From Gautieria morchelliformis (lineage: Eukaryota > Basidiomycota > Agaricomycetes > Gomphales > Gomphaceae), in NCBI GenBank assembly GCA_015179125.1, contig WHVA01000326.1, positions 1 through 64,000 of the forward strand: a stretch of 64,000 nucleotides of DNA. The letters run 5' to 3'. Shown piece by piece: positions 23,621 to 59,928 of this stretch. The first letter of the stretch is position 1. Each line of letters starts with the position of its first letter. The position numbers and the translations under genes are program-made. The notes under the pieces were generated by a model. That model was not told where the DNA came from. It saw only the letters and a program-made list of their open reading frames with translations, and made no database searches.

Positions 23621-24291
23621 TGTTACAACCGTTCATTTCCGACTTCCGACCCTCAGTTCCGCCATACATTCCGCCTCTCCAATAGTTCCGCCACAACGTT
23701 CCGCCCCTCCGACATTTCCGACATTTCGCCCCTTGTACATTTCCCTTGTTCTTTCGACTCTATTACTCGGACCCACCGGACCCACCTCGCCATCCATCAA
23801 AACCATATATCCGGTCACCCTTGTAGTTCGTTGTCAGATATGTTCTTCCGACCCCTTGTTCTTTGCCATTGTTCTACCTTACCCTGAACCCCCCTTATAG
23901 TCCCATTGTTCCCAATTAGTTAGTTCCCACACATTGTACTCGACTTCCGCTTCCTCCGGAATTTGCTTAGTACAACACCATTACTTGTTGCTCTGCGCTT
24001 TGTATAAAACCCCCTCATGTATGTCTGTTATTCTGCAATCAGATAATCACCTTCGATACTTGATTTCCTTCGCTCCATCTCCTGTTCTTAGCACAGCGAG
24101 TCTAGCAAGATCTCAGTCTCTCGGTCTTCCGCTTTCCGACTCAAGTTCCGACCAAACCTCTGGTCCAGTACTTTCCGACTTCCGGCTCATTTCCGAAATA
24201 CCTAGGACGATAGTTCATTGGGGGCGCAACCTATAAGTTGAAGCCGCTGTCCTTTCCAGTTCCGACTTAGTGGAAATCTCGATACGTAACA
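23621..24291 (+). repeat. Gypsy-1 5' LTR
   Basis: 671 bp, TGTTAC...GTAACA. A TATAAAA box lies at about 24,002-24,008 (TGTATAAAAC), a plausible promoter. I count 16 TTCCG and one CGGAA on this strand. Confidence 0.95.
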
Positions 24292-24324
24292 GTATTATCT
24301 GATTCCCACCCGATAACTATCACT

Positions 24325-25767
24325 ATGCCTCCTCGTACCACAGCTACTTCAGCTCGAGCAGGAGCTGTCGAAGCTCTCTCTTATTTTGGCAATCTTAGAT
24401 CCGCAGCACCAAGGCACGCGGAACCCTCCAACAGCTCTCGTGCCGACGATGAGCTTTCCGATGCTTTTCCGCAACGTTTCGAAGAAGTTCCCGACGCTAA
24501 TCCCGACGACAATCCCGACTACGACGGGAATTCGACGAGTAGCAGCGGCGAACAAACAGCAGCGTCATACCGACGCCCAGCTCCACCACCACCACCTCCA
24601 CCAGGACCACCTCCAGGCGGCCCTCCAGGCGGCCCTCATGGCGGCCCACCCGGCGGTCCCCCAGGCGGTCCTCCCGGCGGTCCTCCACCTCCAATTCCAC
24701 CTCAGATTCCCGCCAACCCAGTTCCGCCCGCGCCAGTTCCGGATCTTGCACAAGCCATCGCCATGCTAGCCGGACAACTCCAGCGCCCGGCCCAAGCACC
24801 ACCACGCCCCAAGACAAAGGTCCGCGAACCAGATCAGTTCGACGGTTCCGACCCCAAGAAGCTCCAGCCATTTCTGGTTCAGCTTCAACTCAATTTCCGT
24901 GATCGTCCCGACGCCTTTCCCGACGACGAACGAAAGGTCAATTATGCCCTTTCCTATCTCCGAGGCACGGCGCTCGACTATTTCGAACCCGCCCTCATGG
25001 ATCCGTTCGCTCTCGTCGACTGGGCCGACGATTACCCCAATTTCATTTCCGAACTCCGCAGCAACTTCGGACCATTTGATATGGAAGCCGATGCGGAGAA
25101 CGAACTCGATAAGCTTCGCATGAAAGACACTCATAAGATAGCTAAATATATCGTCACGTTTCAGCAGCTCGCTCCTCGAGTCCAATGGGGAGAAGCCGCA
25201 CTCCGACGCCAGTTTTACATGGGCTTGCCATCCCGGATCAAGGATGAAATTGCCCGCGTCGGAAAACCCGCCACCCTTACCGACCTCCGCAACCTCGCCC
25301 AATCCATCGATTCGCGCTACTGGGAAAGACACTCCGAGATTGCTCGTGAAACATCCACCCAGAGCAAGAACGACAAGTCTTCCGACAAGAAGTCTGATAA
25401 AGACAAGAAGAAGACCAATTCCGGAAACACCAACTCCGGAAGCAACAACAACAACAACAGTTATGGATCCAACTCCGGCAACCGGAACAACAACAACACC
25501 CCTCGGAACAACCAGGCCTCTGGTTCTAACACCAACGCCCGGAAGAGTACCCCGGATCTTTCCGACAAACTTGGGAAAGACGGGAAACTAACCCCTGTAG
25601 AACGCCAGCGTCGCATGGACAACAACCTTTGCCTCTTCTGCGGCAAAGGAGGTCACGTCGCTCGCGACTGCACTCGCGCTTCCGCCTCCGCTGCTAAGGC
25701 CAAAGGCCGCGCAGCAAAGACGGAAGAGAAGTCCGAAGCGGTTCCCGCTGCGGATTCAAAAAAATAG
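24325..25767 (+). CDS. Gypsy-1 Gag
   Basis: 480 residues. A long Pro-Gly-rich tract sits near residues 85-135, followed by the retrotransposon Gag core (F-G-D-P-K-LQPFL...R-T-ALDYF) and a zinc knuckle CLFCGKGGHVARDC near the C-terminus. Asn/Ser-rich low complexity lies between core and knuckle. It forms the intracellular particle in this family. Confidence 0.93.
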   Translation: MPPRTTATSARAGAVEALSYFGNLRSAAPRHAEPSNSSRADDELSDAFPQRFEEVPDANPDDNPDYDGNSTSSSGEQTAASYRRPAPPPPPPPGPPPGGPPGGPHGGPPGGPPGGPPGGPPPPIPPQIPANPVPPAPVPDLAQAIAMLAGQLQRPAQAPPRPKTKVREPDQFDGSDPKKLQPFLVQLQLNFRDRPDAFPDDERKVNYALSYLRGTALDYFEPALMDPFALVDWADDYPNFISELRSNFGPFDMEADAENELDKLRMKDTHKIAKYIVTFQQLAPRVQWGEAALRRQFYMGLPSRIKDEIARVGKPATLTDLRNLAQSIDSRYWERHSEIARETSTQSKNDKSSDKKSDKDKKKTNSGNTNSGSNNNNNSYGSNSGNRNNNNTPRNNQASGSNTNARKSTPDLSDKLGKDGKLTPVERQRRMDNNLCLFCGKGGHVARDCTRASASAAKAKGRAAKTEEKSEAVPAADSKK

Positions 25768-25921
25768 TCAGCAGTCCTCCAGCCTCCGCACGAGCTGAGG
25801 GCTGTGTTGACCCCATTCGTGCGACAAACGAGGTTAAACTCAACGCATCCGCTCTTTCGTCCCCGACTCTCTCTCTGTTCCGCTCACTTCCGACACCATT
25901 TCCGCACCCCCGTTTACAGCA

Positions 25922-28900
25922 TTGGTCGACTCCGGTTCGACTCATTGTTTCCTCGATTCCGACTTTGTTTTGAAACATAAACTTCCGACCCGCAACATTC
26001 CGACTATTCCGCTCCGCCTTTTCGACGGGTCTTCCAACACGGGAGTTTCCCAAGTTGTGGATCTGTCTATCCGTTTCGCTACTGGGGACAACCATGAAGT
26101 TACGTTTTACGTTACTCCGCTAGATGCTAGCTGTTCCGTTGTACTAGGACACAATTGGCTCACCCGATATAATCCGTCGATTAACTGGGCATTGGGTCAA
26201 ATACAGTTCCGTACCCCGGATCAACTTCCGTCTATTCCGACGTCTTCTGCAAAGATGGCTCAGGCCTCTTCCGCAACTCCGCTCGTGGATTCAGTTCCGC
26301 ACTCCGGTCCCGCTTTAGCACCTCCGCCCCTCGAAGCTCCTCGAATTGCGCTCGTTTCCGCCATCGCTTTCCGCGTATTGCAACGGCAAGATGATACGAC
26401 CGTTTTCCAGCTTCACCTCTCCGATTCGGCTTCAGTCAAGGCTCGTTCCGCCTCGACTTCCGCTCCGGTCGACATGAGCTCAGTTCCGGAAGAATATCGG
26501 GACTTCCCGGACGTGTTCAATAAGGCCAAAGCCGACAAACCTGCTGAACATCGACCTTACGATCTGAAGATAGAATTGGAAGAAGGAGCATCTCCGCCCC
26601 TTGGCCCGATCTACTCTCTTTCGCAAAGTGAACTCCTAACTCTCCGAGAGTTCGTCGATGAACATCTCAACATGGGCTTTATCCGCCCTTCGCTGTCTCC
26701 GCACGGCGCTCCGGTCCTCTTCGTCAAGAAGAAGGATGGATCTTTCCGCCTCTGCGTCGATTTCCGCGGACTCAATGCCCTCACTAAAAAGGACAAATAT
26801 CCGCTTCCGCGCATTTCCGATTTACTCGACACTCCCCACAGGGCGAAGATCTACACCAAAATTGACCTACGGCACGCTTATCACCTTGTCCGCATCCGGG
26901 AAGGTGACGAGTGGAAAACCACTTTCCGCACCCGCTACGGCGCTTTTGAGTGGGTTGTCATGCCTTTTGGTCTAACCAATGCTCCCGCCGCTTTTCAGCG
27001 ATTCATGAACGACGTATTTTCCGACCTCCTCGACGTATGCGTTTTAGTCTACATTGACGACATCCTCATCTATTCCGACACACCGGAAAAACATCGAGAA
27101 CATGTCCGCGAAGTACTCCGCCGTCTACGCAAACACCATCTCTACGCAAAAGCAGAGAAATGCGAATGGCATCGCGACACGGTCGAATACCTCGGCTACA
27201 TCCTCTCTCCAACAGGTCTTACCATGGCAGAGGACAAGGTCAAGGCAATTCAAGAATGGCCGGAACCCCGACGTGTTAAGGATGTGCAGTCTTTCCTTGG
27301 CTTCGCCAACTTTTACCGACGTTTCATTTATAATTTTTCCGACATTACTGTTCCGCTCACGCGTCTCACCAGGAAGGGTGCCCCATGGAATTTCACACCG
27401 GAATGCCGCTCCGCATTTGAAGCTCTCAAATCGGCCTTCACCACGGCTCCCATACTCGGTTTCTGGATTCCTGATGCCCAACTTGTACTCGAAACTGACG
27501 CTTCTGACTACGCGCTAGCCGCCATTCTTTCCATCATTTCACCCACGACGGAGAAATTCATCCGATCGCCTTTCATTCCCGCACCTTTTCCGCCCCGGAA
27601 CTCAACTACGACGTCCACGATAAGGAACTACTTGCGATTTTCGAAGCCTTCAAAATCTGGAGACATTACCTCGAAGGTCCAACTTATCCGATCGACGTTG
27701 TAACGGATCATAAGAACCTTGAGTATTTTGCAACCACTAAGATTTTGACTCGCCGTCAAGTCCGCTGGTCTGAATACCTCTCACAGTTCAACATGGTGAT
27801 CCGTTTCCGCCCCGGAAAGCTCGGAGCAAAACCCGACGCACTCACTAGACGTTGGGACGTCTACCCAAAAGAGGGAAGCAGCGACTATGCCAGCGTTAAT
27901 CCGCACAATTTCCGCCCAGTATTCTCTACTGAGCAACTGGCATCGTCCCTGCGTGCCACAGCATTGCAGTTTCCGCTACTCCGCGCCTCAATTATTATGG
28001 ACACCGAGTCTCTCCATTCCGACATCCGTTCCGCACTCCGTTCCGACCCCACCTCCGCAACCCACCTCGATGACCCCACCAGTCCTGGATGGTCCCTCGA
28101 TTCCGACGGATTTCTCCGGTACAAGTCCCGTATTTACGTTCCGGACACCAACGATCTACGACTTCGCGTGCTCCAGCAAAGCCACGATCATCCGCTCTCA
28201 GGACACCAAGGCCAGAACAAGACCCTCGACATAATCCGACGCACCTATACTTGGCCTCTCCTCCGCACGATGGTCCAAGACTACTGCAAGTCATGCACCA
28301 CCTGTATGCGAGCCAAGCCTCAACGTCACAAACCCTACGGCCTCCTGAAGCAACTTCCGATCCCGGATCAACCCTGGAATTCGATATCCATGGATTTCAT
28401 TGAGAAACTTCCTAAGTCATCCGGCTATGATACCATTCTAGTGATCGTTGACCGCCTTACAAAGCAGTCCATCTTTATTCCGACCTACGACACCATAACT
28501 TCCGCCCAGCTCGCACAGCTCTTTGTGCTCCACGTCTTTTCCAAGCACGGAATCCCTTCCCATGTCACTTCCGACCGTGGATCCGAATTCGTGTCCTCCT
28601 TTTTCCGCACACTCGGCAAGGCTCTCGACATGAAGCTCCACTTCACTTCCGGTTATCACCCCGAAGGAGACGGACAAACGGAACGTACTAATCAGACCCT
28701 TGAGCAGTATCTCCGCGTCTATTGCAACTACCAACATAGCAATTGGTCCGACCTTCTTCCGCTCGCGGAATTTGCCTACAACAACGCGCCTTCCGCTACC
28801 ACCGGAATTTCACCCTTTTATGCCAACAAGGGCTACCACCCGAATCTCGCCATCCACCCTGAACGCGACCTCGCCTCTGCAAGAGCCCGAGATTTCGTTG

Positions 28901-29469
28901 TGGAACTTGACGACCTTCACCAGCACCTCCGAGAGAACATTACCGCTGCCCAGAAGAGATACCAAACTTCCGCTGATCGGAAACGCCTTCTGCAACCGGC
29001 ATTCGAGATAGGCGACAAAGCCTTTGTCAAAGCGGAAAACTTCCGCACCACTCGCCCCTCGAAGAAGCTCTCTGAGAAATACCTCGGCCCTTACGAGATC
29101 ATCGCTAAGGCCGGCAGTCGTTCTTTCACCCTCAGACTTCCTGACAATATGCGCGCAGTACATCCGGTATTCCATGTCTCCATGCTTGAACCCGCAGTTC
29201 CGAATACAATTCCGAATCGAGAACAACCTCCGCCTCCGCCAGTCGTCATCGACGGAGAACCGGAATATGAGATTTCGGAAATTCTCAACTCCAAGCTCGA
29301 CAGAAGATACCGCTGCCAACTCCAGTACCTAGTCAAGTGGGCAGGCTATGAAAACACTGACGAAGAGACTTCGTGGATTTCCGCCACGGAACTTGACCAC
29401 GCCTCTGACCTCGTCTCTGATTTCCACAAGTCATATCCTGACAAGCCTGGCCCCATTTCCACGCCCTAG
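25922..29469 (+). pseudogene. Gypsy-1 Pol region (protease, RT, RNase H, integrase, chromodomain)
   Basis: Recognisable in order: aspartic protease (LVDSGSTHCF), reverse transcriptase (LCVDFRGLNALT, MPFGLTNAPAAFQ, VYIDDILIYS), RNase H (LETDASDYAL), integrase zinc-binding and catalytic core (H-P-G-H...C-TC, MDFIEKLP, TSDRGSEF, HPEGDGQTER), and a C-terminal chromodomain (YLVKWAGYEN-DEETSW). The chromodomain places it among chromoviruses, which target heterochromatin. It is a fossil with about one break. Confidence 0.93.
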
Positions 29470-29598
29470 TCATTTCCGACCTCATTTCCGACGCCCATTG
29501 ATTCTTACAGTTCTCAAGTCATTTGTCAAAATCCGATTAATTTCCCGTTACTCTATTTTCCGACACTTCAAGAAACTATCTACAAGTCCTTGATACCC

Positions 29599-30823
29599 CT
29601 ACTCCTCCCCCATTGTCTCCGCCTCGACCTCTTTTTCCGCTTCCGGCGCTTTCTCCGCCTCCCCTACCTCGACACTCACCAACTCCATTTCCACCCTTTC
29701 CCTCGTTTCCGCCCCCCCGCTCGGACCCGCTTCCTCCCCAATTCCCTGCTCCCGCAGCCGCGCATCCATTCGGTCCCGGACCAGATCATTCCGCCACCGC
29801 ATTTCCCGCGTCAACTGCTGCAGGACTGTAGACATGACAGTCATCTGGTTCTGAATTGACAGAACCTGATGCTGCTGAACCTCTGCCATGTCGACCATGA
29901 TATCCCGGATTTCGCGTTGCTGTTCCCGCATGGCCCTCAGCGACCCGGCAATGTCAAGGAGCGGAGAAGCCATGGTGAACCGGTTCAACACCGCCTGTGC
30001 CGACTTTCCGGTCACCGGAAAGGATTCCTCGGCCCTCCCTCCGCTCGGTCCCGGTTCCGCCTTCGGATTTGACTCCTCAACCTTCTGTTTCTTTCGCTCC
30101 AGCCTCGAAGCGCACCCGTCCACAACGCAGCGCCTTTTCCTGTCACGGCACTGGTCGCACGACGTTTCCCGTGGATTGCTCGACCACGTGCAATCCACCC
30201 CCTTAGACTTGCATGGGTCACAAGGGGCCTTTTCCTCTTCGCCGTCCCGAGTTTTCCGCTTCTTAGTCGCGGGATTTTCCGGCCCCAGTTCACGGAGTTC
30301 TAACATCCGACTCAACTTCTCCTTTCGAGCCTTCTGGAATGCGTCCGCTCGAGTTTTCCGTTCCGCCACAAGGTTCACCGGGGTCGCAATCTCCTTTTGC
30401 TTCCCTTTTCCTTCCGGAGTCGGTGTACTTTCCGCCGAACCTTCCGAGTCTGACTCTGACTCGTCCTGAACATGATTCTGGAAGAACTCTAGTTAATTTC
30501 AAGATCATTTCCGCCGGACATTTCCCACTCACCTGATCCCTTTCCGCTTTCTCCGCAGCCGCTTTCTCTGCAGCAGCCTTGTCCGCAGCAGCCTTCCGTG
30601 CCGCGTTCCGTTTCCGTTTTTCTTCACGAACGCGCTCCTCCTCGCGGCGTTCGCGCTCTTTCCTCTCCTGCTCCTTCCGCTCCTTCTCCCGACGTTCTTT
30701 CTCTTTCCGCGCAGCTTCCTCAGCCTCGCGTTTCTCGGCCATTTCCTTTTGCGCGAGCATATCAGCGAAGTGCTGTTTCATCTCCGCGCTGGACATCTTA
30801 GAGAAATCTACTGGGGCACTCAT
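29599..30823 (-). CDS. Gypsy-1 antisense accessory gene: coiled coil plus GAL4-type Zn2Cys6 cluster
   Basis: It lies wholly inside Gypsy-1, between the chromodomain and the 3' LTR, on the strand opposite to pol. Two coding blocks (30,823-30,533 and 30,477-29,599) are separated by a 55-nt stretch with GT-AG ends and keep frame, giving about 389 residues. The first block is extremely Glu/Arg/Lys/Ala-rich, a likely coiled coil. The second has a cluster C-x2-C-x6-C-x10-C-x2-C-x6-C (30,222-30,127, including CDPCKSKGVDC and CDQCRDRKRRC), the spacing of fungal GAL4-type binuclear zinc domains. A helical stretch rich in Met/Gln/Arg and an acidic tail follow. It is not a known retrotransposon protein to me. 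A DNA-binding or regulatory role is inferred from the cluster only. Confidence 0.7.
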
Positions 30824-30945
30824 GATGGAATAGGGAGAAGACGCGTTTGTCTTTCAGCCTATATTTCAAACTCCGACGCGTTTGTTCACAGGTCACGTGA
30901 TTCCGACTTGTGGTCTCGCAGGGCTCGACCTTAGAAGGGAGATAC

Positions 30946-31617
30946 TGTTACAACCGTTCATTTCCGACTTCCGACCCTCAGTTCCGCCATACATTCCGCC
31001 TCTCCAATAGTTCCGCCACAACGTTCCGCCCCTCCGACATTTCCGACATTTCGCCCCTTGTACATTTCCCTTGTTCTTTCGACTCTATTACTCGGACCCA
31101 CCGGACCCACCTCGCCATCCATCAAAACCATATATCCGGTCACCCTTGTAGTTCGTTGTCAGATATGTTCTTCCGACCCCTTGTTCTTTGCCATTGTTCT
31201 ACCTTACCCTGAACCCCCCTTATAGTCCCATTGTTCCCAATTAGTTAGTTCCCACACATTGTACTCGACTTCCGCTTCCTCCGGAATTTGCTTAGTACAA
31301 CACCATTACTTGTTGCTCTGCGCTTTGTATAAAACCCCCCTCATGTATGTCTGTTATTCTGAAATCAGATAATCACCTTCGATACTTGATTTCCTTCGCT
31401 CCATCTCCTGTTCTTAGCACAGCGAGTCTAGCAAGATCTCAGTCTCTCGGTCTTCCGCTTTCCGACTCAAGTTCCGACCAAACCTCTGGTCCAGTACTTT
31501 CCGACTTCCGGCTCATTTCCGAAATACCTAGGACGATAGTTCATTGGGGGCGCAACCTATAAGTTGAAGCCGCTGTCCTTTCCAGTTCCGACTTAGTGGA
31601 AATCTCGATACGTAACA
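30946..31617 (+). repeat. Gypsy-1 3' LTR
   Basis: 672 bp, differing from the 5' LTR by one base and one extra C in a C-run. It is followed by the duplicated CTGAC. Confidence 0.95.
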
Positions 31618-47764: not shown

Positions 47765-48847
47765 TTATATGCCCTGACAGGCCCCGGGCCTGAATCGGGC
47801 TCGGGATCGGGAGCATTTTGTGCTCTCGGTTCCGGGGGCGTTTTGTGCCTGGTGTCCCCGGTCAGTCCCGCGTTGCGGATCCGCAGCCTGCTGTGCGACC
47901 TGTACGGCTCGCGTGAGCTGCTCGTCGGGCAGCTGAGCGGTGTGGCTGTGGGCCACTGGTTCTTCAGTGTTCTTCGCTAGTAGCTCAAGGGCCCGTGTAT
48001 GGCGGCACATGGCTGCGGCTTCTTTATGCTGCCAGTGTGCGACTTCAAGCTCTAAGCTCTCGGTCGTCGTTTCAGAGTCAGGCTCTGAGGCAACCTGTTC
48101 CCTGACGATCTGTTGGATTGTCTTGCGGCTGTCCGTTGCGGCAGCCGGTTGCTCTTGCAGTTCATTCCTGAACCTTACATCCTGTTCGACCGGGACGGCT
48201 GGCGGTGGCATTCACTGCTTGTCCCGCTCCTTTCTGTGCGGGTCTTCCACGTCATGGCCGCGTTCGTTGGCTGTGGACTGTCGTGAGCTCGGACGTGCTG
48301 TGTCGCGTTCCCCGCGTGGGCGGAGGGCCTTCTGGACGTCCTCCAGTGTGGCTGCATCTTGCAGCCTGATCTCCTCCGCCTGGTGGAGTTCCTTGCCGAT
48401 TGCCATTAGGGTGGAGGCGGTGTTGTCAAGCTGCGATGCCAACTGATCATGCTTGTGGCGCGTCAGCGTGCTTCGGTGCAGCGCAGCCTGCACCTGCTTG
48501 TTCAGGGCCTCTGCCATCTCGTGGTCGATGGCGTGAGCTCTCGAGCTCTTGCAACAGGAGCTCGAGTATTCCGAGCCCTGACCATCGTCTGGGGCTCGTC
48601 TTTTTTGCCGTTGTCCCCCTTCAGGGACGATTGTCGTTGCTCTACTTCGTGAGCGTCGGTTCAAGTCGTGGCTTCGTGCCCGCCTCAACGTTGATGCTCT
48701 GCCGTCTGACAGCGGTGAGACTTCTCTGCCCTTTCCCTTGTCTCTGGGTAGAGGGGAATGGGGGGGCGGCACCGGCTGGTTGCCCGGCGTCGTCTCTTCC
48801 TCGGCCACACTCGACGAGACGTGGTCGGGGTTTTCCTCGTCATCCAC
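47765..48847 (-). CDS. Gypsy-R upstream frame(s) (ORF0), helical, charged
   Basis: Two abutting open frames lie between LTR and gag. The first (48,847-48,212) has an acidic/Ser-Pro N-terminus, a basic RSRSRA stretch and a long helical region (HEMAEALNKQVQAALHRSTL and onward) likely to form a coiled coil. The second (48,211-47,765) is also helical, Gln/Glu-rich. The related copy at 51,804-52,511 keeps the same N-terminal part. Function unknown; part of a fossil. Confidence 0.65.
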
Positions 48848-49355
48848 TGGGGGGATGAGGGTGGTGAGATCTACGATCTCTCTGTCTTCTATCGTCCTGG
48901 ACTCTTGGTCCAGGGTAGCGTCAGCTGTCGTGTCGCTGGGCTGCGCCTGGGGCGTGGACCTCGAGCTCGTCGCTCGTGTCCATCTTCAACTGCGTGGAAT
49001 CATCATGCTCGCAGCCGACAGTAGAGGGTCTACTGGAGGGTCTCAACGATGTTTAGTCGTAGACGCAGCGATCTTTTTCAAGATTGCTTCGAATCCACAA
49101 TTGGTTGGTCACGTGGCGATCAACCGCAGGATAGTTCAAAAAGGTGTAAAGATGTTGATCTTAAGCCTTGGTCACAAGGGCACACAGAACTTGACCAATA
49201 TGTGGTATTCTGATGCTACGTAGTGACAGTATAGGAGTAAGATGCGATGGGAACCGCTGGCCGGTTCCCACGCATAAACTATACAGTGGGTCCCTAAGGG
49301 GCCCACTGGGGTTATGTAATAACTATTGTACATGTAGATACATAGGTTATTTACA

Positions 49356-51449: not shown

Positions 51450-52511
51450 TGTAAATAACCCGTGTATCTACATGTACAATAGTTATTTACATAATCCCAG
51501 TGGGCCCCTTAGGGACCCACTGTATAGTTTATGCGTGGGAACCGGCCAGCGGTCCCCATCGCATCTTACTCTTACCTGTCACTACATAGCATTCAGAATA
51601 CCACTCATTGGTCAAGTTCTGTAGTGCCCTTGTGATACAAGGTCTTGAGATCGACATCCTTTACACCTTTTTGAACTATCCTGCGGTTGATCACCACGTG
51701 ACCAACCGATAGTGGATTCGAAGCAATCTTGAGAAAGATCGCTGCGTCGACGACTAAATATCATTGAGACCCTCCAGTAGACCTTCTACTGTCAGCTGAG
51801 AGCATGATGATTCCACGCAGTCGAAGACGGACACGAGTGACGAGCTCGAGGTCCACGCCCCAGGCGCAGCCCAGCGACACGACAGCTGACGCTACCCTGG
51901 ACCAAGAGTCCAGGACGATAGAAGACAGAGAGATCGTAGATCTCACCACCCTCATCCCCCCAGTGGAGGACGAGGAAAACCCCGACCACGTCTCGTCGAG
52001 CGTGGCCGAGGAAGAGACGACGCCGGGAAACCAGCCGGTGCCGCCCCCCCATTCCCCTCTACCCAGAGACAAAGGAAAGGGCAGAGAAGTCTCGCCGTCG
52101 TCAGATGGTAGAGCATCAACGTCGAGGCGGGCACAAAGCCACAACTCGAACCGACGCTCACGAAGTAGAGCGACAACGATCGTCCCTGAAGGGGGGACGA
52201 CGGCAAAAAAGACGAGCCCCAGACGATGGTCAGGACTCAGAATACTCGAGCTCCTGTTGCAAGAGCTCGAGGGCTCACGCCATCGACCACGAGATGGCAG
52301 AGGCTCTGAACAAACAGGTGCAGGCTGTGCTGCACCGAAGCACGCTGACGCGCCACAAGCACGATCAGCTAGCATCGCAGCTTGACAACGCCGCCGTCGC
52401 CCTAATGGCAATCGGCAAGGAACTCCACCAGGCGGAGGAGATCAGGCTGCAAGATGCAGCCATGCTGGAGGACGTCCAGAAGGCCCTCTGCCCACGCGGG
52501 GAACGCGACAC
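51450..52511 (+). mobile_element. Gypsy-R second copy: LTR 51,450-51,665 plus leader and ORF0, truncated
   Basis: It matches 48,290-49,355 in inverted orientation: LTR (216 bp), leader with the CCTGCGGTTGATC block, then ORF0 from about 51,804. It stops abruptly at 52,511, where the Gypsy-2 LTR begins. Truncated fossil. Confidence 0.85.
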
Positions 52512-52991
52512 TGTAAGGGCAACCCTGGCTAGTCGTGGAGATCACACTACCACACAACTGACAAGGGGAAATCCAAAGTATGTATAAATGAACAGAGCAT
52601 ACAAGAGAGGGGGTTCTCACCTGACAAGGGGAAATCCAAAGAGAAAAGTCTAAGGACCCCCAATGTCAGCGAGCCCGTATTATACTACGCTGCGCAGCCA
52701 GGGACAACACTTGGCACCCGCCATCAACCCTGCATCCCCCTGACCCTTGATCGACCCTTGATGCCACCTATTATGCGAGTCACTTGATTTCCGACACTGT
52801 TCCGGGGCGGAAGTCGGAAATTGGAGTGGAACTGGCAAGGCGAACGGAACTGGTGGAAGTTCTCCCAGAAGCGGAATCGTTCCCGAAAGCGGATGCGGAG
52901 ATGGAATCGGAACCGGAAGCGGAGTCGGAAATGGAGTCGGAACTGGGTGTGGTGTCGGAACTGGAAATGGAAAACAGGGTGTCCCCTGACA
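52512..52991 (-). repeat. Gypsy-2 LTR (3' in element sense)
   Basis: 480 bp; carries the Ser/Asp/Thr-rich C-terminal tail of the pol frame on the reverse strand. Confidence 0.95.
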
Positions 52992-55900
52992 TCACCCCCC
53001 CTCTAGCGTGCTGCGTCCTCGAAGCACGGGACACAAGGGATTGAAATGCCAGCGAGCGGATTCGGCGAGGGGCACCTGGATGTGTCCTATAGAACTCCCG
53101 GAGTTTGTCAGGAGCGGAAACATCTTGCTCCGGGACCCAAGAATTCTCCTCGTACCCATACCCTTCCCATTTCACGAGGAATTGGAGTCGTCCTCGCACA
53201 AACCGGCTGTCCAGGATCCGTTCCACCACGTAGTGCTCTTCCCCATCTACAATTTCTGGCGGAGGTGGCGGATGAGCCTTCCGATGTGGAATTGGGTCCT
53301 CAAGCATAGGGAGTAACTTCACCACGTTGAAGACGGGGTGGAGGCGGGACATGGACATCGGAAGTCGGAGGCGGTATGCATTCCGTCCAACCCTCCGCGT
53401 CACTGTGAAGGGCCCAAGGTAGCGGTGGGCAAGCTTCTGCGAAGGGCGTGTGGTGCGGATGTCACTTGCATCTAGGTACACCTTGTCTCCAACTTGGTAC
53501 TCTGGGGCAGGAACCCGGCGTCGGTTGTAGTACCTTGCCATGTCATCCTTGGCCTTCGCAAGGGCCGACTTGGCTTCTGAAAGGGTGGAGTCCATGCGGT
53601 CTCGGAACTCGTTGACCGTCTCGAGTCGGGACTCAGCCTGGCGTGGTTCGAAGCCCATCCGCGGGTGTCGTCCGGAGTCAAGCATGAAGGGAGTCTGTTG
53701 TGTGGCGGAATGGACATGGTTGTTGTATTGGAATTCCGCCAGCGGAAGTAACTCATCCCAGTCATCCTGCCTCTCATTGACAAAGAGGCGGAGATATTGC
53801 TCTAACTCCTGATTGACCCGTCCCGTCTGTCCGTCACCCTGCGGATGGTACGCTGTGGTGGTAGCCAGCTTTATGCCGAGCAGGCGGTAGAGCTCCCGAG
53901 TCAGTTCCGCGACAAACTGCGGACCTCGGTCGGAAACAACTTGCTTCGGGAGCCCATGCAACTTCCAGACATGTGCAAGGAACAGGCGGGCCGCTCCGAG
54001 GGCTGTGATCGTCGTGTGCGTCGGAATGAAGTGGGACACCTTGCTCACCGAATCCACGACGTTCATGATCGCGTCGTAGCCATGAGACTCTGGGAGTTCA
54101 ACGATGAAGTCGACACTGATGGTGTCCCAGCGGGATTCGGGAATCGGGAGCGGAACAAGTTCTCCGACGGGCGGACGTCGTTGCGCTTTGGTTCGGAGAC
54201 AAAGGTCACACGTCTTCACGTACTGTCCGATGTAGCGGGACATCTGAGGCCACCAGTAATTCCGAGCCACTAACTCCAGCGTCTTCCACCTGCCAGCATG
54301 CCCAGCGACCCGTGTGTCATGGTGCTGGGACACGATGCGACGGCGGAGGTCCGCCCCACCCGGAACATAGACCTTGCCTCTGAAGTGGAGCAGTCCATCA
54401 TGTTCCGACCATTCCGCTGCCCGTACAGACCGTGAGTGCCCTTTCCGGAGTTCCTCCACTGCCTTCACCACCGACTCCTCCTTCTCTCCATTCCGGTACT
54501 GCCTCCGGATATCCCGGAGCATTTCCGCTTCCGCCCCAACTGCAGTTACTCCTTCTAGGGCACGGATTGCAAAGAGACTTGGGCGGAGCAGTGTCATATC
54601 CGCGTTGTCTCCACTTCCGCTTCCGTGATCCGCGCGCGGGATAGGGCATCGGGCTTGCCCATGGTGCGGCCGGGGCGGTGGTGGAGCATGAAGTCAAACC
54701 GGGACAGGTGTAGGGACCACCGTGCTTGTCGTCGGTTCAGCTTCTTAGATGCGGAAATACTCGAGGTTCTTGTGGTCTGTCCAGATCTCAAAAGGGCATA
54801 GAGCACCCTCGAGGAAGTGTCGCCACTCCTCCAGCGCTCGGATGATTGCCAGCATCTCCTTGTCATGGATCTCATAGTTCCGCTCGACCGGACTAAGGCT
54901 CTTAGAGAAGAAGGCAATCGGATGCCACCCCCCACCATCTTCCGATGACTGCTGTGACAAGACCGCTCCGGTAGCTGCGTCGGAAGAATCCGCCTCGACT
55001 CGATAAGGGCGAGAGTCGTCGGGAAAGATCAGGACCGGGGCGGAAGTGATCAGCTCCTTGAGTTTGTCAAAGGAAGTCTGTTCCGGCTCTCCCCACCGCC
55101 ATCCAACCTCCTTCTTGGTGAGGTCGAAGAGGGCACGGGCGTGGCAGGAGAAGTCCTTGATGAACCGCCGGTAGAAATTGACAAACCCAATGAAGGACTG
55201 GACCTCCTTCTTGTTTCGCGGCACGGGCCAATCCGATACACCGGAAACCTTGACTGGGTCCATTTCCACCTTTCCTTCCGATACAATCACCCCAAGATAC
55301 TCTATCCGCGTCCGCTCAAATTCGCACTTTTCCGGCTTGAGACACAGGTTGTACTCCCGGAGCCGTTCCAGCACTCTCCGCACGACTTCCCGATGTTCGG
55401 ACATTGTTTTCGTGAAAATGAGGATGTCATCGAGGTAGACGCAGACAACCCCTTCTGCTATCATGTCACGGAAAATGTCATTCATCATCGTCTGGAATGT
55501 GGCGGGACTGTTGGTGAGGCCAAAGAACATGACCTGTGGCTCAAAGAGTCCTCGATTGGTGCGGAATGCGGCCTTCCACTCGTCTCCCTCCGGATCCGGA
55601 CATTGTTGAAGCCCCAGCGGACATCCAGCTTAGTGAAGTACCTCGCCCCGCGGAGTTGTGTGATCAATTCGGAAATGAGTGGAATGGGGTACCGGTTCTT
55701 GATTGTGATCGCATTCAAGGCCCGGTAGTCCTGCACAAGTCTGAGCGAGCCATCCTTCTTCTTGATGAAGAACACCGGAGATGCCATGGGTGACTTGGAG
55801 GGGCGGATCCTCCCTGTACGGAGGTTTTCCGCAAGGAACGCATCGAGCTCTACCTGCTCCTTGGGTGACAGCGGGTAGACCTTGCAGTTGGTGGGCTTTG

Positions 55901-56893
55901 ACCCAGGCTCCAACTCGATGGCGTGGTCCCACAGCTTCCGTGGAGGCAGGGTATCAAACGACTCCTTGGAAAAGACGTCCTCGAACTCCGCAGGTACTCC
56001 GGAATTTCCGCCTCACTCTATCATGCCTCTTGAGGCTTCAGCAAGGCGTTGCGAAATATTTCCGGTGGCACGGATGTGTTCCGCTTCCGGCGGAAGGTTT
56101 ACGTACAGCAAGCGCTCCCCTTCCGCCAGAATGTCTTCCGGGCCGAGTCGGATGACGTCGGAATCGGAATTCGGAAGTGGGATCCGGTTCAAATTCCGCT
56201 TCCGAGTCTTCTTCTGCAAGCAGTGGATGGGGGCCAGAACGACATGTCTGTATGAGCCGTTCAGTCTTCCGCTGCTCCTGGCGCTCCTTCCGCACTTCCG
56301 ACCGGCACATGTGACAGTTGGCTGGACATCGACTCATCAGTACCTTCCGAGTCTGCCAATTGATCTCCGGGTTGTGCTCTGAAGCCAGGTAAACCCGAGG
56401 ATGATGTCTGCTTCCCCAGGCTGGTGACTGCAAAGGAAGTGCGTTCTGAGTGTCCATCGTAGCGGAGAATTGTGTCTACTATCTCCGTGATGGACCCTGC
56501 CTCATTGGGGCTTCCATCCACATTGAACACCGGGATTGCACGTTGCAACTTCCGCGTGGTCAGTCGGTTCCGTTCCACATAGTCCCGGTCCATAAACTGA
56601 CCAGTGGCCACGCAATCGACAAGGGCGGGTCCGGATTTGACTTCCGCCGTATCTGTCGTCTGGATCTCCACCTTAATGACTAGTGACTTGGGGCCAGGGG
56701 TGGCAGCCACAACATAGCGCTTCGGAAGGCATCTCTCCCAAGGGCGGATGCGGGATGGATGGGGTGTCAGATTTGGTTTTTGTGTGACTTTATCCGGTGG
56801 GTCTGTACGAAGTGAGGGGAGTGGGGGCTTTTCATTCTCTACTTCAAGACAGGCAAACCGGTTATGTACAGGCAGCAGGGGCACACATCTCAC
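52780..56893 (-). pseudogene. Gypsy-2 Pol region
   Basis: Protease to chromodomain as listed for the element, followed by about 70 residues of low-complexity Ser/Asp/Thr/Ala encoded within the LTR. Not one open frame; fossil with a few breaks. Confidence 0.88.
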
Positions 56894-58263
56894 CCGCTGC
56901 GTGTCACAAAATCCGATGCATCTTCCGCTTCCGGTAGACCATGTTCCGCATTTTCGGAAAGCTCTTCCGCAGTGGGCACTCCGTTTATGTCTGCAAGCGC
57001 GAGGAACTCTGGAAGGATCTCGAGTTTCTCTTCTGTGGTCATAAGCCGGATATCAAAGGCTTGGGGGCACTCGCGAGCGTAGTGGCCTGGTTGTCGGCAG
57101 CGGAAGCAGGTGATAGTTCCGTGGCCTTTTCCGCGCATGCGGTCAACATCCATCGGGGCAGGGCCACTCTTCGAGGGAGGAGGGCTATGGTTCCTAATAG
57201 GAGCAGGCGGAGCAAGCATCGGAAATAATTTCCGTGTGGGAATGAATGCGCTTCCGGGTTTTGGCACAGGTTGAGTAGGACGAGCGGAACTGCGTGTCGT
57301 GTTCCGACTCGTCTCCACGAAGGCCTCATTTGCCTCCCTGTTCCGAGAAACCTTCTGTGCAGCTTGGTACCACCCTTCTGGGTCATCAAAATCCGGAGCT
57401 CCATCCCCAAGCAGCGCAACTTGGTTCTGGAGCGTCGGATCAAGTCCTCGTCGGAATTTGATGACGATCGTCTTGTCGTCGTCATATTCCGCAAGGTCGA
57501 TGAGCTCCTGGAAGCGATCGATGTAGTCATCGACCGGATCTTTGGCCTGGTACCAGCTCGTCCCCTCGAGCTTTGTAAGGGCTGTGAGCTGCTCGTTTTT
57601 CGGGCAGAACTGGTCGGAAAATGTTTTCTCGAACGCGTCCCAGTCCCGGAAGTAGTTCCCCTTGCCCTTTGCTTCATGTCGGATCACCTTGTTTGCAAAA
57701 CGGGCTGCGCGGTCCGATTTGAAAAAGGACAACGTCCAGTGAATCCGAGCCTGGTCGTTCGGAAAGAGGTCTCCGACAATTGCGAAGTAGATGCTGCATG
57801 TGTTGAAGAATGCGCGTCCCTTCTCCCGATCTCCGTCAAAGTCCGCCGGAGTTGCGGGTTTGACCTTTGCTAACTTCGCGGACATCCTCTTTTCCGCTAG
57901 TTCCGCTTTTCCGAAATCCAGATCATCCAGCATTTCATTTCCACCACCTTGTGGAATATCTAACTTAGCCAAAATCGCTTGTAAGGCTGTTTCAATCGCG
58001 TCGGTCCTCATCCGGTTCCGCGTCAATTCCTCCTCCATATTCCGAAGACGATCGTCCGGATCCATGTTGGAAGGAGAAATATGGGACGGGATTTCCGGGG
58101 TTGGGAGCTCGACGTAAGAAGAGGGGCTGTCGTACGCTGTATGTGCGGAAGAGGTTGCGATCTCCGAGTCGCTGTCTCCGATTCCAAACGCACCTATGGC
58201 GAATGCAACGCACAGTACGACCGCCGGTCCTCTAGGGGAGAGACTTTTCTGCTGTAAGGGCAA
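56890..58263 (-). CDS. Gypsy-2 Gag
   Basis: About 457 codons. It has an N-terminal coiled-coil segment (RLRNMEEELTRNRMR), the Gag core (FDGDREKGRAFFNTC, AARFANKVI, TALTKLEGTSWYQA--PVDDYIDRFQELI) and a zinc knuckle CFRCRQPGHYAREC. The frame opens just inside the 5' LTR edge; the Met at about 58,065 is a plausible start. Confidence 0.88.
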   Translation of the reverse strand: MPLQQKSLSPRGPAVVLCVAFAIGAFGIGDSDSEIATSSAHTAYDSPSSYVELPTPEIPSHISPSNMDPDDRLRNMEEELTRNRMRTDAIETALQAILAKLDIPQGGGNEMLDDLDFGKAELAEKRMSAKLAKVKPATPADFDGDREKGRAFFNTCSIYFAIVGDLFPNDQARIHWTLSFFKSDRAARFANKVIRHEAKGKGNYFRDWDAFEKTFSDQFCPKNEQLTALTKLEGTSWYQAKDPVDDYIDRFQELIDLAEYDDDKTIVIKFRRGLDPTLQNQVALLGDGAPDFDDPEGWYQAAQKVSRNREANEAFVETSRNTTRSSARPTQPVPKPGSAFIPTRKLFPMLAPPAPIRNHSPPPSKSGPAPMDVDRMRGKGHGTITCFRCRQPGHYARECPQAFDIRLMTTEEKLEILPEFLALADINGVPTAEELSENAEHGLPEAEDASDFVTRSG

Positions 58264-58732
58264 CCCTGGCTAGTCGTGGAGATCACACTACCACACAACT
58301 GACAAGGGGAAATCCAAAGTATGTATAAATGAACAGAGCATACAAGAGAGGGGGTTCTCACCTGACAAGGGGAAATCCAAAGAGAAAAGTCTAAGGACCC
58401 CCAATGTCAGCGAGCCCGTATTATACTACGCTGCGCAGCCAGGGACAACGCTTGGCACCCGCCATCAACCCTGCATCCCCCTGACCCTTGATCGACCCTT
58501 GATGCCACCTATTATGCGAGTCGCTTGATTTCCGACACTGTTCCGGGGCGGAAGTCGGAAATTGGAGTGGAACTGGCAAGGCGAACGGAACTGGTGGAAG
58601 TTCTCCCAGAAGCGGAATCGTTCTCGAAAGCGGATGCGGAGATGGAATCGGAACCGGAAGCGGGGTCGGAAGTGGAGTCGGAACTGGGTGTGGTGTCGGA
58701 ACTGGAAATGGAAAACAGGGTGTCCCCTGACA
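58253..58732 (-). repeat. Gypsy-2 LTR (5' in element sense)
   Basis: 480 bp; directly abuts Gypsy-3 sequence at 58,733 without a matching duplication. Confidence 0.95.
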
Positions 58733-59928
58733 GACGATGCCCGGAAAGCGAAGGAAGCCGAGGAGGAAAGGGAGTGGCTATGCAAGGCGAAAGCTGAGGA
58801 GGAGCATAAGGCACGAGAAGCCGAGGAAGAAGCGAGGAGGACCTGGGAAGCCGAAGAACAGGCTCGGGAGGCCGAGAAGAAGGCCCAAGAGGAGGAGGCC
58901 AAGAAAGCCGAGGTAGCTACCCATGCTCATCCAAGACAACATCTTGATGGTATGATTAAGGAGTTTTGGGAGCGACAAGCCTCGGTTAGCCAAGAAATTT
59001 GGATACCATCGCCTGAGTTAGTGGTGGTGGATTCGGCTGCCGTGAAGGCTCGCATCTTGATGTCGATGCAAGCTCGGGAGCGGAATCAAGTGAAGGCGAA
59101 ACCGAAGGCAACGGGGGTGAAGAAACGGAAGGTGGCGGAGGAGGAGTCGGAAGAGGAAGAAGTGAGTTTTCCGTGATGACTCGGTTCGGCTACTGACTTG
59201 TGATTAGGAATTCCCTTGCGACAACTGCGACCGGCGAAGAGTCCCTTGCATACAGGGGACCAACATGGCGTGCTGAGATTGTAATGCACGCAAGGTCCAC
59301 TGCAGCTTTACCGAGGGCAAACGGAAGCATAGGGTCAGGGCCAGGACTGAGGTACCGGCAGCAAAGACACTGAGGTCAACTCCAATGAAGCCGACGGGTG
59401 CCAAACCGTTGGTTGAAATAAAAACGGGTCCTTCAGGGTCGGGATCCGGAAACGGATCTGGATTGCCCACCGAGGCCGGGCGGCCCAAGTTGATGGGCCT
59501 TTCCGGGGATCAGGCCTTGGCGGCCATTCGGGAGCTTCTGGCTCAACAAAATGCTCTTTTCGAGCGGATGCATGACAGGCTCCAGGGAATACTGGAGTTT
59601 TCCGAGAGAATGCATCGGCAAAACACTCGCCTTAGCAAGCGGGTTCAATGGTGGACGGGTGTGGCTGAAGAAGCCGGAGTTTGGGGTTCGGGTTCGGGTG
59701 CGGATTGGGAAGGGTTCGGGTTCGTGGGGGGATTGGGTTCGGGAAGTGGGGACAAGGGAAAGGAGAAGGAAGATCAGGGAGAGAGCGGGGACGGATACGG
59801 GATCGGGATCGGGATCAGGACATGGGGATGAGGATGCGGATAATGCGAGGGAAGGGGGTTCGGATGTGGAGTCGGGAAATGAAGATGGGATGGATGCGGA
59901 CGGGGATGCAACTATGAAAGAGGATTAG
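58733..59928 (+). pseudogene. Gypsy-3 antisense accessory gene: coiled coil plus Zn2Cys6-type cluster
   Basis: It occupies the same place and orientation relative to pol as the Gypsy-1 accessory gene, with the same order: Glu/Ala/Lys-rich coiled-coil-like region (58,740-58,915), linker, short intron-like gap with GT-AG ends near 59.2 kb, cysteine cluster C-x2-C-x6-C...C-x2-C-x6-C (59,217-59,303), Ser/Gly spacer, helical region (ALAAIRELLAQQNALFERMH), then a Gly/Asp-rich acidic tail. The 5' end is cut off by Gypsy-2. Broken fossil copy. The amino-acid sequences differ greatly from Gypsy-1 outside the cluster. Confidence 0.65.

Follow-up and report, generated by a model that had tools for sequence, protein, structure and literature searches.

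The window analyzed here is a stretch of 64,000 nucleotides (nt) from the basidiomycete Gautieria morchelliformis (contig WHVA01000326.1), and the subject of this analysis is a gene carried in antisense by Gypsy-1, a Ty3/Gypsy chromovirus located at positions 23621–31617. The element displays two long terminal repeats (LTRs) with the target site duplication CTGAC on both flanks, Gag, the protease, reverse transcriptase, RNase H and integrase order, and a C-terminal chromodomain, while Pfam matches cover Gag, protease, reverse transcriptase, RNase H, integrase, a Tf2-1-like SH3 domain and Chromo. A single substitution and a single indel separate its two LTRs over 672 aligned columns, in agreement with the young chromovirus proposed as host element in an earlier sequence-only reading of the window. 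The pol region consists of two overlapping frames (25838–27703 and 27508–29469), with the stop codon at 29467–29469. Between this chromodomain end and the 3′ LTR, on the minus strand, the antisense gene is found, whose spliced frame comprises 389 codons from the ATG at 30823 to the stop at 29601–29599. The two-block coding region of about 390 codons with a GT-AG gap at 30532/30478, described in the sequence-only reading, was recovered with the same coordinates and strand. The features of the element are the following:

23621–24291, plus strand: 5′ LTR of Gypsy-1, 671 nt, TGTTAC...GTAACA (LTR comparison)
24325–25767, plus strand: gag of Gypsy-1, Retrotrans_gag / Ty3_capsid, with zinc knuckle (Pfam)
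25838–29469, plus strand: pol of Gypsy-1, with protease, reverse transcriptase, RNase H, integrase, SH3 and chromodomain (open reading frames, Pfam)
29470–30868: exchangeable cassette, identity being lost sharply after 29470–29493 and regained between 30856 and 30869
29599–30477, minus strand: antisense exon 2, 292 codons plus stop, containing the cluster of six cysteines and a predicted long helix (sequence, copies, predicted structure)
30136–30231, minus strand: six-cysteine cluster, approximate place, CDPCKSKGVDCTWSSNPRETSCDQCRDRKRRC (sequence)
30478–30532, minus strand: antisense intron, 55 nt, GTGAGT...CAG, with ends kept and interior diverged in distant copies
30533–30823, minus strand: antisense exon 1, 97 codons starting from the ATG at 30823, charged and coiled-coil-like (sequence)
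30824–30945, minus strand: candidate antisense promoter and leader, from the ATG to the 3′ LTR (alignment; promoter activity putative)
30946–31617, plus strand: 3′ LTR of Gypsy-1, 672 nt, with 16 TTCCG words on the sense strand and one on the other

The antisense gene is real and is kept by purifying selection. In the source genome (122 Mb, 1113 contigs), to which all copy counts refer, at least 132 scored copies of exon 2 were found, with 63–100% amino acid identity and most of them without stops, a lower bound obtained from 136 matches and 721 first-look candidates. A pol end on the opposite strand and on the correct side accompanied 67 of these 132 antisense matches, among the matches listed, and none presented a same-strand neighbor; this antisense open reading frame (ORF) between pol and the 3′ LTR corresponds to the plant-type aORF-3R arrangement. 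Regarding splicing, 37 of the 44 copies fetched for intron and frame comparison passed a strict rule, which required a GTGAG[T/C] donor, a [CT]AG acceptor at a distance of 53–57 nt and an exon 2 with an uninterrupted frame of over 270 codons. The ratio of nonsynonymous to synonymous substitution rates (dN/dS) was calculated for ten copies, since three of the 13 named copies failed the strict intron rule, and ranged from 0.12 to 0.23 in all 45 pairs, which is not neutral; additionally, the differences per codon position of the antisense frame were 0.168, 0.122 and 0.362 (nine copies). The sequence-only reading proposed that the antisense frame encodes a protein with six clustered cysteines, and this is borne out by purifying selection, by the retained intron and by homologous frames in other Gypsy lineages of the genome. 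In the leader block, CACGTGA was present in 11 of 13 aligned copies and ATAGG in all 13; conserved ACGCGT boxes, considered as candidate promoter elements, lost weight, as the two boxes were intact in just 3 and 6 of the 13 copies. A separate antisense promoter, as well as an action of the product on the LTR or on silencing, may be envisaged.

The six cysteines were invariant in the ten exon-2 proteins aligned, which come from three Gypsy lineages and are 20–66% identical to the first. The spacing of Zn2Cys6 domains (PF00172) is C-x2-C-x6-C-x5-12-C-x2-C-x6-8-C, and zinc clusters of such spacing are DNA-binding domains. The Gypsy-1 type falls within it with x10, exactly as the C-x2-C-x6-C-x10-C-x2-C-x6-C reported in the sequence-only reading, and the Gypsy-2 and Gypsy-3 types with x7. 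The profile search proposed in that reading gave a mixed outcome, since Zn_clus matched all 13 exon-2 proteins scanned and was the top match in 12, but the Pfam cut-off of 21 bits was passed only by L044 (22.1 bits). Moreover, a genome-wide Zn_clus search returned 17 matches, none of them at any antisense position among the matches listed, and the antisense proteins are therefore outliers by the Pfam criterion. The order of the cluster halves suggests a reason for these low scores. Judged against a yardstick of only five host clusters (those with the spacing among eleven fetched Zn_clus matches), the swapped half order scored higher in 5/5 Gypsy-1-type clusters and the usual order in 6/6 of the Gypsy-2 and Gypsy-3 types. 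In the Gypsy-1 lineage, the half resembling the host first half (CxxCRxxKxxC, DNA-contacting in GAL4-type proteins) is the second one. The earlier designation as GAL4-type holds for the spacing, with the qualification that the window copy scores below the Pfam cut-off and that the half like the DNA-contacting one comes second. The antisense proteins share with Zn2Cys6/GAL4-type factors the cysteine spacing, the basic residues in the cluster and the long helix after it, and differ from them in being sub-threshold in 12 of 13 cases, in the swapped halves of the Gypsy-1 lineage and in being retrotransposon-borne. In a single-sequence structure model, this helix spans residues 176–248, with a predicted local distance difference test (pLDDT) score of 81–96 per ten-residue block over 181–250, the rest of the model being poor. 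A short acidic C-terminal end with an invariant Thr-Met was observed in all ten aligned proteins. The best Pfam match of the window copy, DNA_Packaging (E 0.031, below the cut-off), and the best match in the Protein Data Bank (PDB), HIV matrix (E 0.067), were taken as chance, and an NCBIfam search with the antisense protein returned nothing meaningful.

Two observations go beyond the sequence-only reading, namely that the gene behaves as a hypervariable cassette while the rest of the element is nearly identical between copies, and that the element is saturated with the word TTCCG. In the first case, one cassette breakpoint lies immediately after the stop codon of pol and the other a short way upstream of the antisense start codon. 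Swapped elements are 96–99% identical to Gypsy-1 in the 3′ part of pol and 97–98% in the LTR, yet their antisense alleles are 26–69% identical, and the cassette of these mosaic elements has 52–75% nucleotide identity. Sliding identity along C862, C500, C131 and C14 was mostly 95–100% in pol, 59–87% in the antisense gene and 92–100% in the LTR. An LTR identity of 97–98% was verified in these four elements and in C193 and C309 (two of the six aligned in part), while one further copy, C374, gave 62%. The extreme is C309 (L074), with an integrase end 99% identical at the protein level, an LTR 97% identical and an antisense protein 26% identical (tblastn E 2.5e-20), whose gene has the same exon-1 start and cluster as Gypsy-1. 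Among 78 elements with an integrase end at least 98% identical, at least five allele types were recognized: 20 elements carried type A, that of the window, 24 type C, 11 type D and 7 type B or E, one was D-like, one had another allele and 14 were without an allele among the matches listed. Seven of these 14 were examined and corresponded to three type A genes with different internal deletions, two type C variants, one type F and one rearranged gene. Additionally, gag was 97–100% identical in 18 elements with non-A alleles, among the best 89 of 3095 candidates, a list hence biased toward similar gag.

The divergence between alleles is largely synonymous, allele F excepted. The synonymous substitution rate (dS) in exon 2 and in the 3′ part of pol was 0.986 and 0.135 in C500, 1.311 and 0.058 in C862, and 1.087 and 0.038 in C131, all of them swapped, against 0.101 and 0.092 in L018 and 0.208 and 0.175 in L030, which are unswapped type A elements. 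Since exon-2 dS is far above pol dS in the swapped elements and nearly equal to it in L018 and L030, the lineages have exchanged entire alleles. Faster regional mutation was rejected as the cause of the divergence on the same grounds, L006 not being a clean fit, and assembly error was rejected because every main allele recurs on many contigs. Template switching during reverse transcription would be the simplest route of exchange. In L063, L072 and L076, the antisense gene has lost different internal segments on near-identical backbones, and these elements may rely on protein from other copies.

Regarding the second observation, the sense strand of Gypsy-1 contains 116 copies of TTCCG against a dinucleotide-based expectation of 19.2, and the opposite strand contains 26, each LTR having 16 on the sense strand versus one. 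Within coding sequence it is found in all three frames, and its enrichment goes beyond codon choice: in a control of 300 permutations of synonymous codons, TTCCG was the top 5-mer in gag (11 vs 3.0) and in the first (27 vs 8.9) and second (22 vs 6.8) pol frames, the last also having CGGAA raised (11 vs 2.7). An element-wide enriched short motif, as known for VANC-type systems, is thus present in Gypsy-1. In distant LTRs, TTCCG sites were kept more than other CpG-containing 5-mers (133/185 vs 621/1105, p 5e-5). The spacing of the word within 23621–31617 presented peaks at 12 nt (12 pairs) and 7 nt (6 pairs), which suggests paired sites, coding-frame effects being possible.

The combination of constraint, an invariant cluster signature, basic flanks, a long helix, an acidic tail and an element rich in CGG words points most simply to a regulator of the element's own DNA. 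It is tentatively proposed, with somewhat less than even confidence, that the gene encodes a DNA-binding regulator acting on its own element by a VANC-like logic, with alleles exchanged between lineages. In this model, the third gene of Gypsy-1 would be transcribed in antisense and its mRNA spliced, and its product would be a nuclear, zinc-binding protein composed of a charged N-terminal region, the six-cysteine DNA-binding domain, a basic linker, a long dimerization helix and an acidic tail. The protein would act in trans through the CGGAA/TTCCG sites that fill the LTRs and genes of the element, keeping its copies open to transcription as an anti-silencing or activating factor. The cassette, consisting of the antisense transcription unit and its leader, would recombine between element lineages during reverse transcription, and rare alleles would seemingly be favored, resulting in many divergent alleles on one young backbone. 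However, several results weigh against this proposal. The window copy scores only 13.7 bits with Zn_clus, the cluster modeled alone has low confidence (pLDDT 60), and PDB sequence searches found no solved structure at E < 0.05. As the alleles share the LTR, allele-specific DNA targets are not obvious, and L006, a type A copy, fits poorly, with an exon-2 dS of 0.084 against a pol dS of 0.013. With respect to the motif, TTCCG is raised inside the antisense gene itself (19 vs 9.9) but as the fifth word rather than the top one, and its LTR sites were kept no more than all other 5-mers (4671/6843, p 0.34). Finally, the motif is not restricted to the encoding element as in VANC-type systems, since Gypsy-4, a compact element of the same window that could not accommodate such a gene, is enriched in both TTCCG and CGGAA beyond codon choice and on both strands.

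This last result is also a ground for a possible, though on balance unlikely, explanation in which the enrichment of TTCCG is a response to a host factor or to a mutational process unrelated to the antisense gene, which would then regulate something else. The lineages of Gypsy-2 and Gypsy-3 point in the same direction, as they have the gene type and TTCCG is not their top word. On the other hand, other CGG words are raised in these lineages (CTCGG/CCGAG in L046–L050; TCGGC/TTCGG in L051–L057), firmly only in part under codon control, the full old Gypsy-2 and Gypsy-3 elements being too degraded for the motif test to be firm. Under the same control, the excess of TTCCG was absent in a long interspersed nuclear element (LINE), the gag of Copia and of Gypsy-5, and two host genes, which also argues against this explanation.

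Since the exchange does not extend beyond the antisense transcription unit, a live, if rather improbable, alternative is that this unit acts as a locus of self-limitation or incompatibility. The resident mRNA, or a self-interfering protein, would restrain elements with the same cassette, and swapping would provide escape, as with plasmid or Ty1 copy-number alleles. Gag and LTR near-identity outside the cassette, a backbone shared by at least five allele types with none dominant, and the largely synonymous divergence of alleles other than F are in line with this possibility. So is Ty1, in which copy control is reported to be allele-specific and the gag that sets it to have been replaced by recombination (PMC7055915). 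The p22 factor of canonical Ty1 and Ty1′ thus resembles the present case in self-encoded control and allele replacement, while differing in being a sense-strand, Gag-derived restriction factor. In contrast, the strong conservation of the protein would be superfluous for a role of the RNA only, and cassette copies with internal deletions have spread on identical backbones. An immunity-type locus of this kind, in which RNA, protein or both recognize copies with the same allele and lineages escape by exchanging the whole unit, is given an equally low probability; if it were true, one 8-kb backbone would be circulating with many zinc-cluster "serotypes", and retroelements would thereby have an equivalent of heteroimmune phages or of the incompatibility groups of plasmids.

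It is more doubtful still that the protein serves another nuclear step, such as integration targeting beside the chromodomain or the export or packaging of genomic RNA with UUCCG as the RNA signal. The skew of TTCCG to the sense strand (116 vs 26) and its occurrence in coding sequence in all three frames are compatible with an RNA signal, but Gypsy-4 carries the word on both strands and zinc clusters of such spacing are DNA-binding domains. Lastly, a chance or decaying antisense ORF, for which the stops or deletions of some copies could speak, is ruled out for practical purposes by dN/dS, the codon-position pattern and the conservation of intron and cysteines.

Returning to the proposed regulator of the element's own DNA, VANC may be its closest functional model by analogy, and the plant antisense ORFs Retand TRP28 and Grande gene23 its closest structural precedents. 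DNA binding is predicted for TRP28 (PMC11963269), gene23 is described with its own promoter (PMC7264820), and VANC21 sites are reported as dense and of the same orientation in their own element (PMC5735166). The plant ORFs, among them also that of RIRE2, resemble the present gene in place between pol and the 3′ LTR, in orientation and in conservation within a Gypsy lineage; they differ in that Gypsy-1 is a fungal chromovirus with a six-cysteine cluster and allele exchange on one backbone, and none of the 13 exon-2 proteins matched TRP28 (PF04195) even with E values up to 1 allowed. A possible likeness to VANC of Arabidopsis VANDAL lies in an element-encoded protein and a dense, one-orientation short motif. 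However, VANDAL is a DNA transposon, and the VANC21 motif is specific to its element and lies mostly outside coding sequence (PMC5735166), in contrast to TTCCG, which extends into coding regions and is common to Gypsy-4. The sequence-only reading, to which no described family was known, thus needs qualification, as plant Gypsy elements do carry accessory genes in antisense (PMC7264820, PMC11963269). For a zinc-cluster gene borne in antisense by a fungal LTR element, no precedent was found in the literature searched, a weak negative given that the subscription literature was mostly outside the search.

A second antisense gene of the same type is present in the window:

58733–59928, plus strand: broken antisense gene of Gypsy-2, itself on the minus strand (sequence, relatives)

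This copy has an exon-1 remnant, an intron-like segment at 59162–59207, a six-cysteine cluster holding a stop and a helical region, and its relatives, 150 scored matches that are 33–88% identical when the copy itself is excluded, fall into two further lineages. It is interrupted by the nested Gypsy-4 (52511–58732, minus strand; LTRs of 481 nt, 99% identical). Since the integrase of Gypsy-4 is 99–100% identical in 150/150 scored matches (150 of 4027 candidates), this element is a recent burst, and it possibly uses the regulator of Gypsy-1. Elsewhere in the window, inverted copies of 537, 320 and 88 nt, 95–97% identical, lie at 48300–49319 and 51487–52511, around a 2-kb stretch.

LTR retrotransposons were found decades ago to carry accessory genes in antisense, but to our knowledge no function has been assigned to them. 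The antisense gene of Gypsy-1 combines a recognizable domain type, purifying selection and a candidate target motif throughout the element. Its natural allele swaps on a constant backbone represent, in effect, a ready-made comparison, relevant to whether such genes counter silencing or limit their own element.
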